Assembly (NCBI GenBank): GCA_016218305.1
Contig: JACREJ010000037.1
Coordinates: forward strand, 1-34,872
DNA: 34,872 bases
Direction: 5' to 3'
DNA from: Gemmatimonadota bacterium
GTDB taxonomy: Bacteria; Gemmatimonadota; Gemmatimonadetes; Gemmatimonadales; Gemmatimonadaceae
Position numbers and translations under genes: made by a program. The first letter of the stretch is position 1, and each line of letters begins with the position of its first letter. This document shows positions 2,920-8,680 of this stretch, in pieces. Below the pieces are notes generated by a model, which saw only the letters and a list, made by a program, of their open reading frames with translations, made no database searches and was not told where the DNA came from.

Positions 2920-4131
2920 GTGCCACTCGGATTCCGCGCCCGGCTCTTCGTCATCCTCGCCCTCTTCGCGCTTGTGCCGTCGCTGGTCCTGACGGTGGCG
3001 TGGGGCGGCGCGACGAGCCGTGTGCTTCCGCGCATGAGCGGGGCTGCGGCGTGGGACAGCGTGGCGGCGTCGGGCTCGCGGGCGGTGCGTCTCGCCATGG
3101 AGCAGCCGGCGTCGGAGGAAGCGAAGGCGGCGCTGGCGCGGCACGAGCAGGAGCTGGCGAGTTCCGTCACGCAGGCACGCCGGTTCGAGTACCTGGCTCG
3201 GCAGACAGGGCCGGCGCTCCTCGCGGTTGGCCTCATCCTGCTCGCCTTCCTCACGTATCTCGCGTCGCGCATTGCGGGCCACCTCAGCCGCCAGTTGAGC
3301 CGGCCGCTGGATGAACTCGTGGGCTGGACCGAGGCGATTGCCAAGGGGGAGCCGCTCCCGGAGCGCACCACGCGGCGCGGCGCGCCGGAATTCGGCGTCC
3401 TGCGCGAGCGTATGCGGGCGATGGCCGCCGACCTTGAGCGGGGACGTGAATCGGCGATCGCCGCCGAACGTCTGGAGGCGTTCCGCGAGTCGGCGCGACA
3501 GGTGGCGCACGAGCTCAAGAACCCGCTGACACCCATCCGCTTCGCGATCGCGCGGCTGCGACGGGATGCCGCGCCGGAACTGCACGAGACGCTGGATGTG
3601 CTCTCGACGGAGAGCGAGCGACTCGAGGCGATGGCGCGCAGCTTCAGCCAGTTCGGCCGCCTGCCGGAGGGGCCGATGGCGGCGCTCGACCTCGGGGAAA
3701 TGGCCCGCGAGGCGACGCGCACGAGCGTCCCGGACTCGGCGCGGGTGACGATCGAAACTGAGGCCGACCTTCCGCTCGTACAGGGTCAGCACGATGCGCT
3801 GCACCGCGCGTTCGCCAACGTGCTGATCAACGCGGTGGAAGCAGGCGGTGCGAGCGCGCGGCTCGAGGTGCGGGTGGCGCGGCGCGGCCACGAGGTGGTG
3901 GTCGCCGTGCGTGACCAGGGATGCGGTATTGCGGCGGACAGGCTGCCCCGCATCTGGGATCCGTACGTGACCGACAAGACGGCAGGCACGGGGCTGGGGT
4001 TGGCGATCGTGAAGCAGACAGTGATGGCGCACGGCGGGCGGGTCGAAGCCGACAGCACGCCGGGTGCAGGGACGGAAATCCGGCTGGTCTTTCCGGCCAT
4101 GAGTGAACAACGAGCGGGGGCAACACCATGA
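2920..4131 (+). CDS. NtrY-like membrane sensor histidine kinase
   Basis: Autophosphorylating sensor of a two-component pair with the sigma-54 activator at 4765. Of 403 residues: TM1 about 8-28; a short extracytoplasmic segment about 29-95; TM2 about 96-116; HAMP linker about 117-170; HisKA with the H-box VAHELKNPLTPIRF (phospho-acceptor H197); HATPase_c with N-box NVLINAVEAGG (N304), G1 DQGCGI (332-337) and G2 GTGLGLAI. The ELKNPLTPI H-box is typical of NtrY-type kinases. The sensor region is far smaller than in classical NtrY and no PAS domain is evident. The start is GTG 2920, with no clear Shine-Dalgarno. The stop overlaps the next start by 4 bp (ATGA), so translation is probably coupled. 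Confidence 0.9.
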   Translation: MPLGFRARLFVILALFALVPSLVLTVAWGGATSRVLPRMSGAAAWDSVAASGSRAVRLAMEQPASEEAKAALARHEQELASSVTQARRFEYLARQTGPALLAVGLILLAFLTYLASRIAGHLSRQLSRPLDELVGWTEAIAKGEPLPERTTRRGAPEFGVLRERMRAMAADLERGRESAIAAERLEAFRESARQVAHELKNPLTPIRFAIARLRRDAAPELHETLDVLSTESERLEAMARSFSQFGRLPEGPMAALDLGEMAREATRTSVPDSARVTIETEADLPLVQGQHDALHRAFANVLINAVEAGGASARLEVRVARRGHEVVVAVRDQGCGIAADRLPRIWDPYVTDKTAGTGLGLAIVKQTVMAHGGRVEADSTPGAGTEIRLVFPAMSEQRAGATP

Positions 4132-4412
4132 ACGGTCCGGAAGTGCTGGTTCCCATTGCGTTCTTTGCGATGGTGGTGACGATCGTGCTCGGCGTGCCGC
4201 TGGTGCGCGCGCGCATCCGGGAGCGCGAGCGGCACGGCACGCCCGTGCTGCAGGACGCGCAGGCCGCGGAGCGCCTGGCGCGCATCGAGGCGGCGGTGGA
4301 GTCCATCGCCATCGAGGTGGAGCGCATCTCGGAGGCACAGCGCTTCACGACCCGGCTGCTGTCCGAGCGTCCGTCGTCCGCGCTCCCGCCGCGCCCGGGA
4401 GAGGGGTCATGA
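4128..4412 (+). CDS. Small single-pass membrane protein with coiled-coil tail (paralog 1)
   Basis: Unrecognised 94-residue protein. Residues about 6-25 form one hydrophobic helix (PIAFFAMVVTIVLGVPLV) followed by Arg-rich RARIRERER, which predicts the C-terminus in the cytoplasm. Residues about 45-82 are an amphipathic helix (RLARIEAAVESIAIEVERIS) that looks like a short coiled coil, ending in a Pro-rich tail. It overlaps the kinase gene by 4 bp and the next gene by 4 bp (ATGA). Its closest relative in the window is the neighbour at 4409, which shares the coiled-coil segment. The position between a kinase and its regulator suggests an accessory role in signalling, but this is inference. Confidence 0.75.
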   Translation: MNGPEVLVPIAFFAMVVTIVLGVPLVRARIRERERHGTPVLQDAQAAERLARIEAAVESIAIEVERISEAQRFTTRLLSERPSSALPPRPGEGS

Positions 4413-4756
4413 TGCCGGCGGCCGCGATTCTGGCGAACATCGTGCCGATGGCCGGCGCGACGGGGAGCACCGTGGATTATGCCGTGGTGACGGGCGGCGA
4501 GGTGGCCATCGTCGCAATCGTCTTCGGGAGCATTGGCAGCATCGTCTATCCGCTCGTGCGCGCTGCGTCGCGCAAGATGGAGGGACGCACGGCGGCGGCG
4601 CTTCCCCTGGCGCAGATCGAGGACCGCCTCGACCGCATCGAGCGCGGGGTTGAGGCGATTGCGCTCGAAGTGGAGCGCGTCTCCGAGGGCCAGCGCTTCG
4701 TCACGAAGCTCCTCGCCGACAGGGCGCCGCCACCGCTCCCCCCGGCGCACCCGTGA
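4409..4756 (+). CDS. Small membrane protein with coiled-coil tail (paralog 2)
   Basis: Unrecognised 115-residue protein. The start is ATG 4409, which overlaps the previous stop (TGA 4410-4412) and has GAGAGGGG 3-10 nt upstream. One strong TM helix lies at about 32-53 (EVAIVAIVFGSIGSIVYPLV) after a weakly hydrophobic N-terminus. It is followed by an amphipathic helix (RLDRIERGVEAIALEVERVS, then EGQRF.TKLLADR) that matches the helix of the preceding protein almost residue for residue. The pair looks like a tandem duplication that diverged in the N-terminal half. The sigma-54 regulator starts 8 bp downstream, so all four genes probably form one transcript. Confidence 0.75.
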   Translation: MMPAAAILANIVPMAGATGSTVDYAVVTGGEVAIVAIVFGSIGSIVYPLVRAASRKMEGRTAAALPLAQIEDRLDRIERGVEAIALEVERVSEGQRFVTKLLADRAPPPLPPAHP

Positions 4757-4764
4757 GCGCCTAG

Positions 4765-6138
4765 ATGCCGTCCGTCCTGATCATCGACGACGAACCCAAC
4801 ATCCGGCGGATGGTGGGGGCGCTGCTGGAGGCCGAAGGCTTCGAGGTGCGCGACGCATCCGACGGCCAGGCGGGGCTGGCGCGGGCGCTCGAGTGGGAGC
4901 CGGATCTCGTGCTGCTCGACCTCATGATGCCCGGCACGCTCGATGGCATGGCCACGCTCGAGCAGCTGCGCGAACGGTTCCCGGAACTGCCCGTGGTGAT
5001 GATGAGCGGGCGCGCCGGACTGGCCGACGCGGTGAAGGCGACGCGGCTGGGCGCCGTGAACTTCCTCGAGAAGCCGCTGACGCCGGAGGGCGTGCTGCTG
5101 GCGCTCGCCGGGGCGCTGGAGCTGCGCATGGCGCGGCGCGAGCGCACAGCCTTGCGAGTGGACCTTGGCCTGCACGGCGAGCTCGTGGGCGACAGCATGG
5201 CGCTGCGCAACGTGCGCGAGATGATCGCGCGCGTGGCCCCGACCGACGCGCGGGTGCTGATCACGGGCGAGTCCGGCACGGGCAAGGAGCTGGTGGCGGC
5301 GGCGATCCACGCGGAGAGTGTGCGGCGCGAGAAGCCGTTCGTGCGCGTGAACTGCGCGGCGATTCCCCGCGACCTCGTGGAGAGCGAGATGTTCGGCCAC
5401 GAGCGGGGCTCGTTCACGGGGGCCACCGAGCGGCGGCTCGGACGTTTCGAACTGGCGCATACGGGGACGCTGTTCCTCGACGAGGTCGGCGACCTCGGGC
5501 CCGAGGCGCAGAGCAAGCTGCTGCGCGCCATCGAGGCGCGGGAGATCGAGCGCGTGGGTGGCGGACGGTCCATCAAGGTGGACGTGCGCATCCTCGCCGC
5601 GACCAACCGCGACCTCGAGCGCGCAGTGCGCGAGGGGCAGTTTCGCGAGGACCTGTTCTTCCGGCTGAACGTGATTCCCCTGCCCGTGCCGCCGCTGCGC
5701 GAGCGGCCGGACGACGTGCCGGCGCTCGTGCGCCACTTCGCGGCGCTGCAACGCCGGCGCTCGGCGCAGGCGATGCCGGTTTGGACTCCCGAGGCGGTGA
5801 ATGCGCTGTCGCGCTACCGCTGGCCGGGCAATGTGCGCGAGCTGGCCAACATCGTGGAGCGGCTGAGCATCCTGCACGCGGGGCAACCGATCGGCGAGGA
5901 GGAGGTGCGCGGCGTGCTGCCGCTGGCGCCCCTGTCGGCGCCGTCGCTGCCCGACCTGGTGCAGCCGGAGCTCACGCTCAGCGACGCGCTCGACGAGTAC
6001 GAGAAGCTGCTGATCACCCGGGCGCTGTCGGCGGCCAATGGGGTGGTCGCGGAGGCGGCGCGGCGGCTGCGCACCGACCGACCCAACCTGTACCGACGCA
6101 TGCGGCGTCTCGGGCTGCAGCCTGACAACGGCGAGTGA
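4765..6138 (+). CDS. Sigma-54-dependent response regulator (NtrX/NtrC-like)
   Basis: Transcription activator of 457 residues partnered with the kinase at 2920. Receiver domain 1-120 with acidic pocket D8/D9, phospho-acceptor D52 (LLDLMMP) and K103. AAA+ domain about 137-365 with Walker A GESGTGKE (168-175), the sigma-54 contact loop GSFTGA (215-220, the accepted Ser variant of GAFTGA), Walker B TLFLDE (235-240) and the R-finger region FREDLFFRLNVIPL. A Fis-type HTH lies at about 425-453 (VVAEAARRLRTDRPNLYRRM). It would hydrolyse ATP to open sigma-54 promoters; a matching promoter lies directly downstream at 6246-6261. The receiver DL-MMPGTLDGM is shaped like NtrX rather than NtrC. Confidence 0.95.
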   Translation: MPSVLIIDDEPNIRRMVGALLEAEGFEVRDASDGQAGLARALEWEPDLVLLDLMMPGTLDGMATLEQLRERFPELPVVMMSGRAGLADAVKATRLGAVNFLEKPLTPEGVLLALAGALELRMARRERTALRVDLGLHGELVGDSMALRNVREMIARVAPTDARVLITGESGTGKELVAAAIHAESVRREKPFVRVNCAAIPRDLVESEMFGHERGSFTGATERRLGRFELAHTGTLFLDEVGDLGPEAQSKLLRAIEAREIERVGGGRSIKVDVRILAATNRDLERAVREGQFREDLFFRLNVIPLPVPPLRERPDDVPALVRHFAALQRRRSAQAMPVWTPEAVNALSRYRWPGNVRELANIVERLSILHAGQPIGEEEVRGVLPLAPLSAPSLPDLVQPELTLSDALDEYEKLLITRALSAANGVVAEAARRLRTDRPNLYRRMRRLGLQPDNGE

Positions 6139-6296
6139 CGAAACGACACGCGTATGACCACTCCTGGCGACTCCGGCCCCGCCACGACGCACGCGTCGAG
6201 GGGCAAACGCATGCCCGCGCGGCGATTGCACCGCTGGGCCTGCTGCGGCACGGCCCCTGCACTCGATCGGGCATCCCAAGCACCCGAGGACGTACG
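6139..6296 (+). other. Regulatory intergenic region ahead of the barrel operon
   Basis: 158 bp between the activator gene and the barrel gene. The frame of the barrel gene stays open through it, but the encoded residues (His/Arg-rich) do not resemble a signal sequence. It contains the sigma-54 promoter and the Shine-Dalgarno GAGGA at 6285-6289. Confidence 0.6.
6246..6261 (+). promoter_or_regulatory. Sigma-54 (-24/-12) promoter
   Basis: CGGCACGGCCCCTGCA matches the RpoN consensus TGGCACG-N4-TTGCA with two mismatches and keeps the diagnostic GG (6247-6248), exactly 10 bp, GC (6259-6260) arrangement. The start site would be near 6271, leaving a leader of about 26 nt with the GAGGA Shine-Dalgarno 7 nt before ATG 6297. 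It lies just after the gene for a sigma-54 activator, which strongly supports it. Confidence 0.7.
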
Positions 6297-8006
6297 ATGA
6301 CTCGCAGTCTCCATCTGGCGGCGCTCGCCGCGCTCGCGCTGTGCACCGCCACAGCCGCCGCGCAGCAGCGCGAGACCCCCACCCGAGATGTTGCCGCCGC
6401 GGCCGTGGCGACCTACAACGCCGAGCGCACCCTGCGCGTGACCGGCGTGCTGGAGGTCGCGGCGGAGCGGACCATCGAAGGCGATGTCGCGGTGCTCAAC
6501 GGTCCGGTCCGCGTGGCGGGGCGGATCACCGGCACGCTCGCGGCCATCAACGCCGACGTGCAGCTGGCCCCGGGGGCGTCCGTGGGCGGGCTCATCGTCG
6601 TTGGCGGAACGATCAGCGGACGCGACGCCGCCACAGTGCGCGGCGAGGTGTTGCGGCGGCCCGAGCTGCTGCGCTACCACTTGGCCGACGATCAGCGCCT
6701 GGTGCCGGAGGAAGATCCGGCGTACGACGAGGCCTGGTGGCGGCGCAAGACGCGCCGCCGGCCACCGCCGCCGGATGATCGCTCCTGGCACGATTTCACC
6801 GTCACGAGCGCGCATACGTACAACCGCGTGGAGGGGCTGCCCATTCACGTCGGACCGCGCATCCACCAGGTGACCGACTGGGGCCGCTTCACACTCGACG
6901 CGTTCGGCGTGGTGCGCACGGCGGGTCCGATACGCTGGGATCGCGGTACGCTGGGACACGACGTGACGAGCGAGCTGCAGTTCGGCAGGAAGCTCGGCCT
7001 GGGCATTGGCGGCCGTACGTTCGACATCGTGGACGCCGTGGAGGACTGGCAGCTGAATGACCGCGAGGTGGGGCTGGCCGCCGTGGTGCTGCACCGAGAC
7101 TTCCGCGACTACTATCGGCGGCATGGCGGCCTCGGTTTCGTGAAGCTGCATGCGGGGGCGGACGCCGACCTCACGTTCTCATACAGCGACGAGCGATGGG
7201 AAAGCGCGCGCGATCGCGATCCGTGGTCGCTGTTTCGCGATAGCGACCCGTGGCGCCTGAACCCGGCGATGGACGAGGGGACCATGCATCTCGCGACGTC
7301 GCGCCTGCGCGTGGACACGCGCCGCCGCGAGAGTGCGCTGTGGGGCGGGTGGTATCTCGACGCGGAGATCGAGCGCGGCACGGGGACGCTGGCCCGCGAC
7401 CCCGGGCTTCTGACGGTGATCCCCGTGCCAGAGGAGGTGTCGTACACGCGGGGCTTCGTGGACGCGCGTCGCTACACGCGCCTGTCACCGTACGCCGCGC
7501 TCAACCTGCGTTTCGTCGCCGGCGGGTGGATGTCGGGCGACCGGCTGCCGACGCAGCGTCGCCTCTCGGTGGGCGGGCCGGGCACGCTGCCCGGGTACGA
7601 CTTCCGGCGGGCGTGGCGTGTACATCCTGACGTGCTGACCTGCGGCGGCACCGCGCTGCCGGGTGCTCCCGCACTCTGCGATCGCGTGATGCTCTTCCAG
7701 GCCGAGTACCGCAGCGATTTCGGCGTCCGCTGGGTGCGCGATGACGACCGCGACGACTGGTGGCGTCCGGGCTTCAACCGGCACGCGTCGTGGGTGCTCT
7801 TCGCGGACGCCGGCCGCGGCTGGAGCGTCGGCGCGCCGGACCTCGCGACGACGTACGCCAAGGACGATGTGCCGCCGCTCTCGAGCTTCCGGGCCGACAT
7901 CGGCGTGGGGATAGACTTCGGCTCGGTGGGCGTGTACGTCGCCAAGGCGACCACCACGGCGCGCGAGCCCATCAACGTCATCGTGCGGGTCAGGCACCCC
8001 TTCTGA
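6297..8006 (+). CDS. Outer-membrane Omp85-like barrel with N-terminal bactofilin-like beta-helix
   Basis: Exported 569-residue protein starting at ATG 6297 (GAGGA 7 nt upstream). Residues 1-22 are a signal peptide ending ATAAAQQ. Residues about 45-110 carry the alternating pattern of a polymer-forming/bactofilin-like beta-helix (TIEGDVAVLNGPVRVAGRIT, then GGLIVVGGTISG). A Pro/Arg-rich linker follows, then about 380 residues of beta-barrel with features of the bacterial surface antigen (Omp85/D15) family: VGGPGTLPGYDFRRAW, FQAEYRSDF, LFADAGRGW, a DIGVGIDFG strand, and a final aromatic RVRHPF as in outer-membrane insertion signals. No POTRA domains are apparent, so it is not BamA. Role unknown. 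Sigma-54 control is predicted, and the next gene overlaps its stop (TGATG). Confidence 0.75.
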   Translation: MTRSLHLAALAALALCTATAAAQQRETPTRDVAAAAVATYNAERTLRVTGVLEVAAERTIEGDVAVLNGPVRVAGRITGTLAAINADVQLAPGASVGGLIVVGGTISGRDAATVRGEVLRRPELLRYHLADDQRLVPEEDPAYDEAWWRRKTRRRPPPPDDRSWHDFTVTSAHTYNRVEGLPIHVGPRIHQVTDWGRFTLDAFGVVRTAGPIRWDRGTLGHDVTSELQFGRKLGLGIGGRTFDIVDAVEDWQLNDREVGLAAVVLHRDFRDYYRRHGGLGFVKLHAGADADLTFSYSDERWESARDRDPWSLFRDSDPWRLNPAMDEGTMHLATSRLRVDTRRRESALWGGWYLDAEIERGTGTLARDPGLLTVIPVPEEVSYTRGFVDARRYTRLSPYAALNLRFVAGGWMSGDRLPTQRRLSVGGPGTLPGYDFRRAWRVHPDVLTCGGTALPGAPALCDRVMLFQAEYRSDFGVRWVRDDDRDDWWRPGFNRHASWVLFADAGRGWSVGAPDLATTYAKDDVPPLSSFRADIGVGIDFGSVGVYVAKATTTAREPINVIVRVRHPF

Positions 8007-8680
8007 TGCCGCCTCGCCTGCGCCGCTGCCTGCTCGCCGCTGTCGTGCTCCTGGGCGCGACGGCGGCAGCGGCGTCGGCGCAATCGCGTCCATCGCTGTC
8101 TATTACGGCACCCACAGCTGACCAGGTGATGCAGACGGGCCCGGTGGTGGTGGCCTCGCACATGCTGTCGGGACGAAAGCTGCAGGAATTGCTCGCCAGC
8201 GGCTTCCCTGCGCGTCTGCATTTTACCGTTGAGCTGTGGAGCGTCGGCGGCTGGGTGAATGACCTCGAGCGCCTCACGGAGTGGGACGTCGTCGTGCGCT
8301 GGCTGGCGGTGGAGCGCGTCTACGAGGTCATCCAGATCATCGGCGCGCGGCCGTTCTCACTCGGCCGGTTTGCGCTCCTGTCCGATGCTGCCTCGGCGGT
8401 AGCCCGTCCCACGCGGGCGCAAATCGTCGCCTCGGCCGCCGCCCGCCGGATGTACTATCAGGCGACGCTGACCGTCGAGACGCTTTCGCTCTCGGACCTC
8501 GACGAGGTGGAGCGCTGGCTGCGCGGCGAGCTGCGCCCGGCCGTGCGCGGCGAGCGCAACCCGGGCACGGTGCTCGGGCGCGGCCTGAAGACGCTGGCGT
8601 CGCGCCTGCTCGGTGGCGAGCGGCGCGAGTACGTGGCACGGACGGGAGTGTTTCAGATACCGATGGGAGGTGGGAGATAG
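8006..8680 (+). CDS. DUF4390-like exported protein
   Basis: 224 residues from ATG 8006, which shares one base with the previous stop. Residues 1-26 are a signal peptide or N-terminal anchor (LLAAVVLLGATAAAASAQ). The body has the pattern of DUF4390 proteins: LASGFPARLHFTVELW near residue 75, WDVVVRWLAVERVYEV, and a C-terminal YYQATLTVETLSLSDLDEVE. DUF4390 genes sit beside ntrY/ntrX in many Proteobacteria, and this one lies in an NtrYX-like cluster, which supports the call. Function is unknown. Its last codons (IPMGGGR) are already part of the heptamer array starting at 8665, so the 3' end of the gene has been shaped by that repeat. Confidence 0.6.
   Translation: MPPRLRRCLLAAVVLLGATAAAASAQSRPSLSITAPTADQVMQTGPVVVASHMLSGRKLQELLASGFPARLHFTVELWSVGGWVNDLERLTEWDVVVRWLAVERVYEVIQIIGARPFSLGRFALLSDAASAVARPTRAQIVASAAARRMYYQATLTVETLSLSDLDEVERWLRGELRPAVRGERNPGTVLGRGLKTLASRLLGGERREYVARTGVFQIPMGGGR

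Follow-up and report, generated by a model that had tools for sequence, protein, structure and literature searches.

A sigma-54 element and a candidate enhancer between an NtrYX-like kinase-regulator pair and an outer-membrane operon in Gemmatimonadales

Does a two-component pair of NtrYX kinship act on the cell envelope through a sigma-54 promoter of its own? The question is raised by a 158-bp gap between a response regulator (RR) gene and an outer-membrane protein gene, in which an earlier note, made from the sequence, had recognized a -24/-12 element. The window, that is, the whole stretch of 34,872 nucleotides that was analysed, is contig C100 of a 2.0-Mb Gemmatimonadota genome, the close relatives of which have been deposited as Gemmatimonas sp. 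or as Gemmatimonadetes metagenome-assembled genomes.

Gene order and the -24/-12 element

All the genes concerned lie on the + strand. The first encodes a sensor histidine kinase of 403 aa (HK, 2920-4131), in which Pfam recognizes HisKA and HATPase and, just under the cut-off, HAMP. It is followed by two small open reading frames for membrane-type proteins: S1 (4128-4412), which overlaps the HK stop codon and encodes a hydrophobic N-terminal segment and a charged coiled-coil-like C-terminus, and S2 (4409-4756), which resembles S1. The Pfam search assigned no family to either, and among the loci examined their orthologues were encountered only in family f1. The RR gene (4765-6138) encodes receiver, AAA+ (GSFTGA loop) and Fis-type HTH domains, as identified by Pfam. 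Beyond the RR-barrel gap (6139-6296) lie the outer-membrane protein gene, here called the barrel gene (6297-8006), and the gene of a DUF4390-family secreted protein (8006-8680), the start of which overlaps the barrel gene stop. The barrel protein comprises a signal peptide, a bactofilin-like N-terminal repeat domain and an Omp85-superfamily C-terminal barrel; both assignments were made with Pfam on orthologues. The coordinates of the earlier note were found to be right when re-read from the sequence: the RR stop codon ends at 6138, the gap occupies 6139-6296 and the barrel ATG is at 6297. The succession of HK, RR, barrel and DUF4390 genes is kept throughout the order Gemmatimonadales, with the RR and barrel genes always linked. 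The genome encodes RpoN (PF04552 match, 215 bits), as do 77 of 78 relatives.

The element, CGGCACGGCCCCTGCA (6246-6261, + strand), reads CGGCACG-GCCC-CTGCA, with two mismatches to TGGCACGN4TTGCW. Its GG (6247-6248) and GC (6259-6260) have the exact GG-N10-GC spacing, in a context of the TGGCACGNNNNTTGCW type, and it is located 109 bp past the RR stop and 51 bp ahead of the start of the Omp85-like gene; the spacing and the distance from the RR gene claimed earlier are thus borne out directly. Counting from the -12 position at C6260, transcription is predicted to start at about 6271-6272 (+ strand). A GAGG at 6286-6289 (+ strand), conserved in the genus, is a plausible Shine-Dalgarno sequence.

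Such a match by itself would prove little, since loose matches to the consensus are no more frequent in the window than expected: the three-mismatch pattern was found 51 times, compared to 59 expected by shuffling. The element has the top score of the whole window with an approximate sigma-54 matrix modelled on the published consensus. A clade pattern, YGGCAYGNNNNYTGCW, has just two matches in the whole 2.0-Mb genome, the element included. The other match (G000:C25:26156-26171, locus L074) is followed, some 40 bp further on, by an open frame that starts with GTG and encodes about 218 aa. In congener G006, the same pattern is also present ahead of FliL-like and FliA-like genes (names read from translations). 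Genes of the fliL and fliA type are classical sigma-54 targets, which argues that the pattern reads sigma-54 sites in this clade.

Conservation of the promoter and of a palindrome across the order

Within the genus, the position of the element is the same in 10 of 11 congeners, which keep it in a gap that has otherwise diverged: in the genus alignment its 12 fixed positions are 94% identical, compared to about 60 to 76% in neighbouring stretches. The eleventh genome (G003) has lost the entire gap and has no element. For a wider comparison, 65 RR-barrel junctions in which the start could be read were taken from three families of the order; barrel start codons were picked by script, and two were corrected by hand. 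The gap was at least 60 bp long in 38 of the 65 junctions, among which 30 had a GG-N10-GC motif 47 to 51 bp ahead of the start codon, compared to a mean of 2.2 and a maximum of 10 after shuffling (as the loci are related, the shuffled counts should not be taken for strict probabilities). Outside the genus the count was 20 of 28 (shuffle mean 1.55, maximum 6). The element recurs at the same start-codon distance in other genera and in two further families. Three further gap junctions had the motif at 45, 53 and 87 bp from the start codon, and the remaining 5 of the 38 had no element near it. As an example, the gap in the single-contig genome G031 (4,636,964 bp, locus L060) carries TGGTACGTGTCTTGCT. 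Lack of conservation in orthologous loci is what the earlier note had named as speaking against its proposal, and conservation is what was found. Because the element is kept within the genus and recurs in other genera and families, and is rare genome-wide, a chance match was rejected. Judged from sequence, a real sigma-54 element lies between the sigma-54 activator gene and the outer-membrane operon.

Conservation might also be due to coding, if the barrel protein were extended at its N-terminus by sequence encoded in the gap. In the window, a frame starting with GTG at 6135 is indeed open, as it is in several congeners. Congener gap lengths of 158, 159, 169 and 170 bp break this frame, however, and it was on these lengths that the extension was rejected. 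In addition, the GTG-started frame is absent in two loci (L004 and L008), the gap is conserved in short blocks that lie apart from each other, and the signal peptide beginning at 6297 is a good one; we give this explanation almost no credence.

A second conserved feature of the gap is a palindrome, clearest in family f3, where CGTGTCG-N3-CGACACG is perfect in 6 of 7 loci. It is placed directly or nearly directly after the RR stop codon, about 105 to 110 bp upstream of the -24 element, and 6 of the 7 f3 genomes contain exactly one perfect copy genome-wide, at the RR-barrel junction. Degenerate versions (11 to 13 of 14 positions) are present in other gap-bearing lineages. In the genus of the window 12 of 14 positions are kept, and the left half lies on the stop codon; the candidate enhancer, or upstream activator site, of the window is AGTGACG-AAA-CGACACG (6134-6150), which overlaps the RR stop codon. 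This is the sole zero-mismatch match of GTGWCGNNNCGACACG in the genome, one-mismatch matches being common. A palindrome score of at least 11 of 14 was obtained for 25 of the 38 gap junctions, compared to none of the 27 junctions with a shorter gap.

The palindrome is found 105 to 117 bp upstream of the element in families f1 and f3, and about 50 to 72 bp upstream in f2. Upstream activator sites of sigma-54 promoters are typically located about 80 to 150 bp upstream, and as far as sequence evidence goes the palindrome can be classed with them. Its distance and symmetry fit, as does its being absent wherever the promoter is absent through loss of the gap; we therefore read it as a probable enhancer for the RR, and we infer that the RR binds it. 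The regulatory link proposed in the earlier note is strongly supported by this co-conserved, enhancer-like palindrome, while its binding step stays inferred. The genus alignment shows two more conserved blocks, TGACC..C...GCGACTC (6155-6173), which may possibly contain second half-sites for the regulator, and GGCAAACGCATG (6202-6213).

In the other 27 of the 65 junctions (G003 and 26 other relatives) the gap is shorter than 60 bp, the genes being fused or nearly fused, and none has an element; the barrel gene is presumably reached there by read-through. Moreover, no sigma-70 promoter, terminator or known RNA element was found in the RR-barrel gap of the window. One might then regard the barrel and DUF4390 genes as distal genes of an HK-RR operon, and the element as a minor or vestigial internal promoter. 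We hold this to be very improbable: wherever the gap exists, element, palindrome and start-codon distance are clearly conserved, unlike a vestige, and read-through can operate together with a sigma-54 promoter. On the RR tree, which follows taxonomy, the promoter trait has undergone 12 changes or more. That three families share the arrangement suggests an old promoter that was lost repeatedly, the tree counts being unable to separate gain from loss. A promoter that is repeatedly present or absent, with gene fusion as the alternative, amounts to a natural experiment on regulatory rewiring.

It may also be asked whether the promoter, while real, answers to another regulator of the cell, its adjacency to the RR gene being incidental. 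The genome encodes five full-length NtrC-type regulators, four besides the RR, a paralogue on contig C20 matches NtrX better than the RR does, and other genera have a similar palindrome and element away from the RR gene. Against this, palindrome and element are found directly behind the RR gene in three families and are jointly absent once the gap is lost; the uniqueness of the palindrome, at this junction, in 6 of 7 f3 genomes and the constant linkage of RR and barrel genes point the same way. An incidental neighbourhood is therefore unlikely, and activation by the adjacent RR is preferred.

A loose genome-wide search for a half-palindrome with an element was too weak to give more than examples, as the reversed control also matched often. 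Such pairs were seen in relatives ahead of genes for an OMP beta-barrel, a TonB-dependent receptor, a DUF6174 lipoprotein-like protein and an exosortase (L217, L219, L220 and L212), and some of them may be due to chance. In genus g24, three loci (L213, L214 and L215) have the palindrome, a sigma-54 element about 113 bp downstream, and then an ORF of some 60 aa that is conserved (GIVIADGG.P.TETRF.AFVWGP.PD.DE); in one of these genomes, G033, the barrel gene has no element (L106). The ORF may be a second target, or the target may have been switched.

Kinship of the kinase-regulator pair

By its Pfam domains (receiver, AAA+ with a GAFTGA-type loop, Fis HTH), the RR is an NtrC-family enhancer-binding protein, and the GAFTGA/GSFTGA sigma-54 contact loop is present in 63 of 65 orthologues. 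Among solved chains it scores best against NtrX 5m7n, which we take to be the NtrX of Brucella (labelled by the search tool as nitrogen assimilation regulatory protein). Identities to NtrX, NtrC, AtoC and ZraR are all about 39 to 44% (44% for ZraR); since identity cannot separate NtrX from ZraR or AtoC, trees were used. In the maximum-likelihood tree of the regulators, NtrX and the C20 paralogue are sister to the RR clade (95/92), and in that of the kinases the HK is placed beside NtrY (94/93, just under the starred level); both trees are from small samples, with NtrX and NtrY references from alphaproteobacteria only. The H-box of the kinase, HELKNPLTPI, points to the same kinship. The form HE[LIM]KNPLTPI or a near variant is found in 36 of 39 orthologues, compared to HEIKNPLTPI in NtrY, HEVRNPLTAI in AtoS and HEIRNPLSSI in ZraS.

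Strict membership is another matter. Unlike NtrY (744 to 771 aa), the kinase is short, and Pfam detected no PAS or PDC domain in it. The RR scores 395 bits on the curated NtrX model, below the cut-off of 600, and the kinase too is under its NCBIfam cut-off. On the same NtrX model the C20 paralogue outscores the RR, with 450 bits. This second NtrX-like regulator (G000:C20:1705-3039, locus L226) has kept its sigma-54 loop intact, and a kinase gene was not seen adjacent to it. The RR also differs from alphaproteobacterial NtrX, which is without the sigma-54 loop in the structure-match alignment and in the reference sequences; Caulobacter NtrX likewise has none (PMC10274813). Of the label 'NtrYX-like' given to the pair in the earlier note, the kinship can be kept and strict membership cannot. 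The best reading is that the pair is related to NtrYX, has remained competent for sigma-54 and would serve an NtrYX-like envelope circuit.

The outer-membrane operon and the proposed circuit

The calling of the two target genes as Omp85-like and DUF4390-like holds at the family level. Among 33 barrel orthologues, Pfam found Omp85 (PF01103) in 23 at E <= 0.05 (best 2.3e-9) and Bactofilin in 19 (best 3.3e-5), the barrel protein of the window alone being under the cut-offs. No POTRA family was among the Pfam matches on orthologues at the N-terminus, where the bactofilin-like domain takes its place. Outside about residues 30 to 140 the barrel protein was modelled with poor confidence, and fold searches were uninformative, so we make no claim on its fold. 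DUF4390 (PF14334) was found in 24 of 27 orthologues of the last gene (best 3.5e-10), compared to 0.013 for the protein of the window alone.

Taken together, it is highly probable that the HK-RR pair switches on the adjacent outer-membrane genes via a dedicated sigma-54 promoter and enhancer. The kinase and the RR would be made from their own promoter upstream of the kinase gene, without a sigma-54 element. Upon an envelope signal, the kinase would phosphorylate the RR, dimers of which would bind the palindrome (AGTGACGAAACGACACG in the window) overlapping or directly after their own stop codon, and possibly also the next conserved block. The DNA would then loop, and the AAA+ ring would drive RpoN-RNA polymerase open at the element. 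The transcript, beginning near 6272, would encode both the bactofilin-Omp85 outer-membrane protein and its DUF4390 neighbour. Judged by the analogy of Bordetella PlrP and of ZraP, the DUF4390 protein probably reports back to the kinase, which would make the operon both output and feedback arm.

A broader proposal is that of an order-wide, three-part envelope circuit, consisting of a sigma-54-competent pair of NtrYX lineage, its own palindromic enhancer, and a feedback arm formed by the bactofilin-Omp85 protein and a PlrP-like DUF4390 partner. We hold it tentatively, and put it a little short of an even chance. Points against the mechanism are the relatives that lack the element (G003 and the 26 others), the five gap junctions without it, the degenerate palindrome of the genus, and the kinase without PAS or PDC; the last counts against PlrP-type feedback because this is thought to act through the PDC domain.

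In the E. coli ZraPSR system, as in AtoSC and GlrK-QseG-GlrR, an NtrC-type regulator encoded beside its kinase activates a neighbouring envelope gene via sigma-54. ZraR drives zraP, and ZraP feeds back on the kinase. The present locus has a similar arrangement, with the RR next to the kinase and an adjacent predicted sigma-54 envelope target, and lies at a similar sequence distance; it differs in its target, an outer-membrane barrel and a DUF4390 protein rather than ZraP, and the trees favour the NtrX side. The Bordetella protein PlrP belongs to the DUF4390 family and is the third component of PlrSR, an NtrYX-family pair, and plrP homologues nearly always adjoin a plrSR-type pair (PMC13001219). 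The DUF4390 gene likewise adjoins the pair here, as in this PlrSR subset of NtrYX, but it is downstream, in a sigma-54 operon with the Omp85-like gene, whereas plrP is upstream of the kinase gene. NtrYX of Rhodobacter sphaeroides, whose family the RR and kinase neighbour in the trees, has already been shown to control the envelope (PMC7240162). The earlier idea of a circuit for the envelope rather than for nitrogen is thus not new as such. In the part of the survey by Francke et al. (2011, PMC3162934) considered here, which treats functions in general, control of the bacterial exterior by sigma-54 is an established theme, and the envelope genes of this locus fit it; that part contains no description of the operon, its palindrome or Gemmatimonadota targets.

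What is new is a sigma-54-competent NtrYX-like pair, with its candidate enhancer and dedicated operon, spread over the order. An outer-membrane protein and DUF4390, a family only just shown to supply a third NtrYX component, are here linked to a kinase-regulator pair of NtrYX kinship, and the DUF4390-NtrYX association is extended to another phylum. The switch, if confirmed, would show that a system of the NtrYX kind can govern the envelope through sigma-54 instead of nitrogen metabolism. The three-part circuit, if true, would suggest an origin of NtrX as a sigma-54 activator and the occurrence of DUF4390 partners beyond Proteobacteria. For a phylum in which regulation has received little study, the locus would offer a concrete unit of enhancer and promoter whose regulator and target can both be named, and the unit is probably also present in a relative that can be cultured.

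As for the HK-RR genes themselves, sigma-54 autoregulation was rejected, no convincing element being found upstream of the HK gene. A conserved inverted repeat, AGTTTCG...CGAAACT, is present upstream of the kinase gene at about 2825-2870 of the window and at the same place in relatives (GTTTCG..CGAAAC in other genera), and may be the operator or promoter of that gene.
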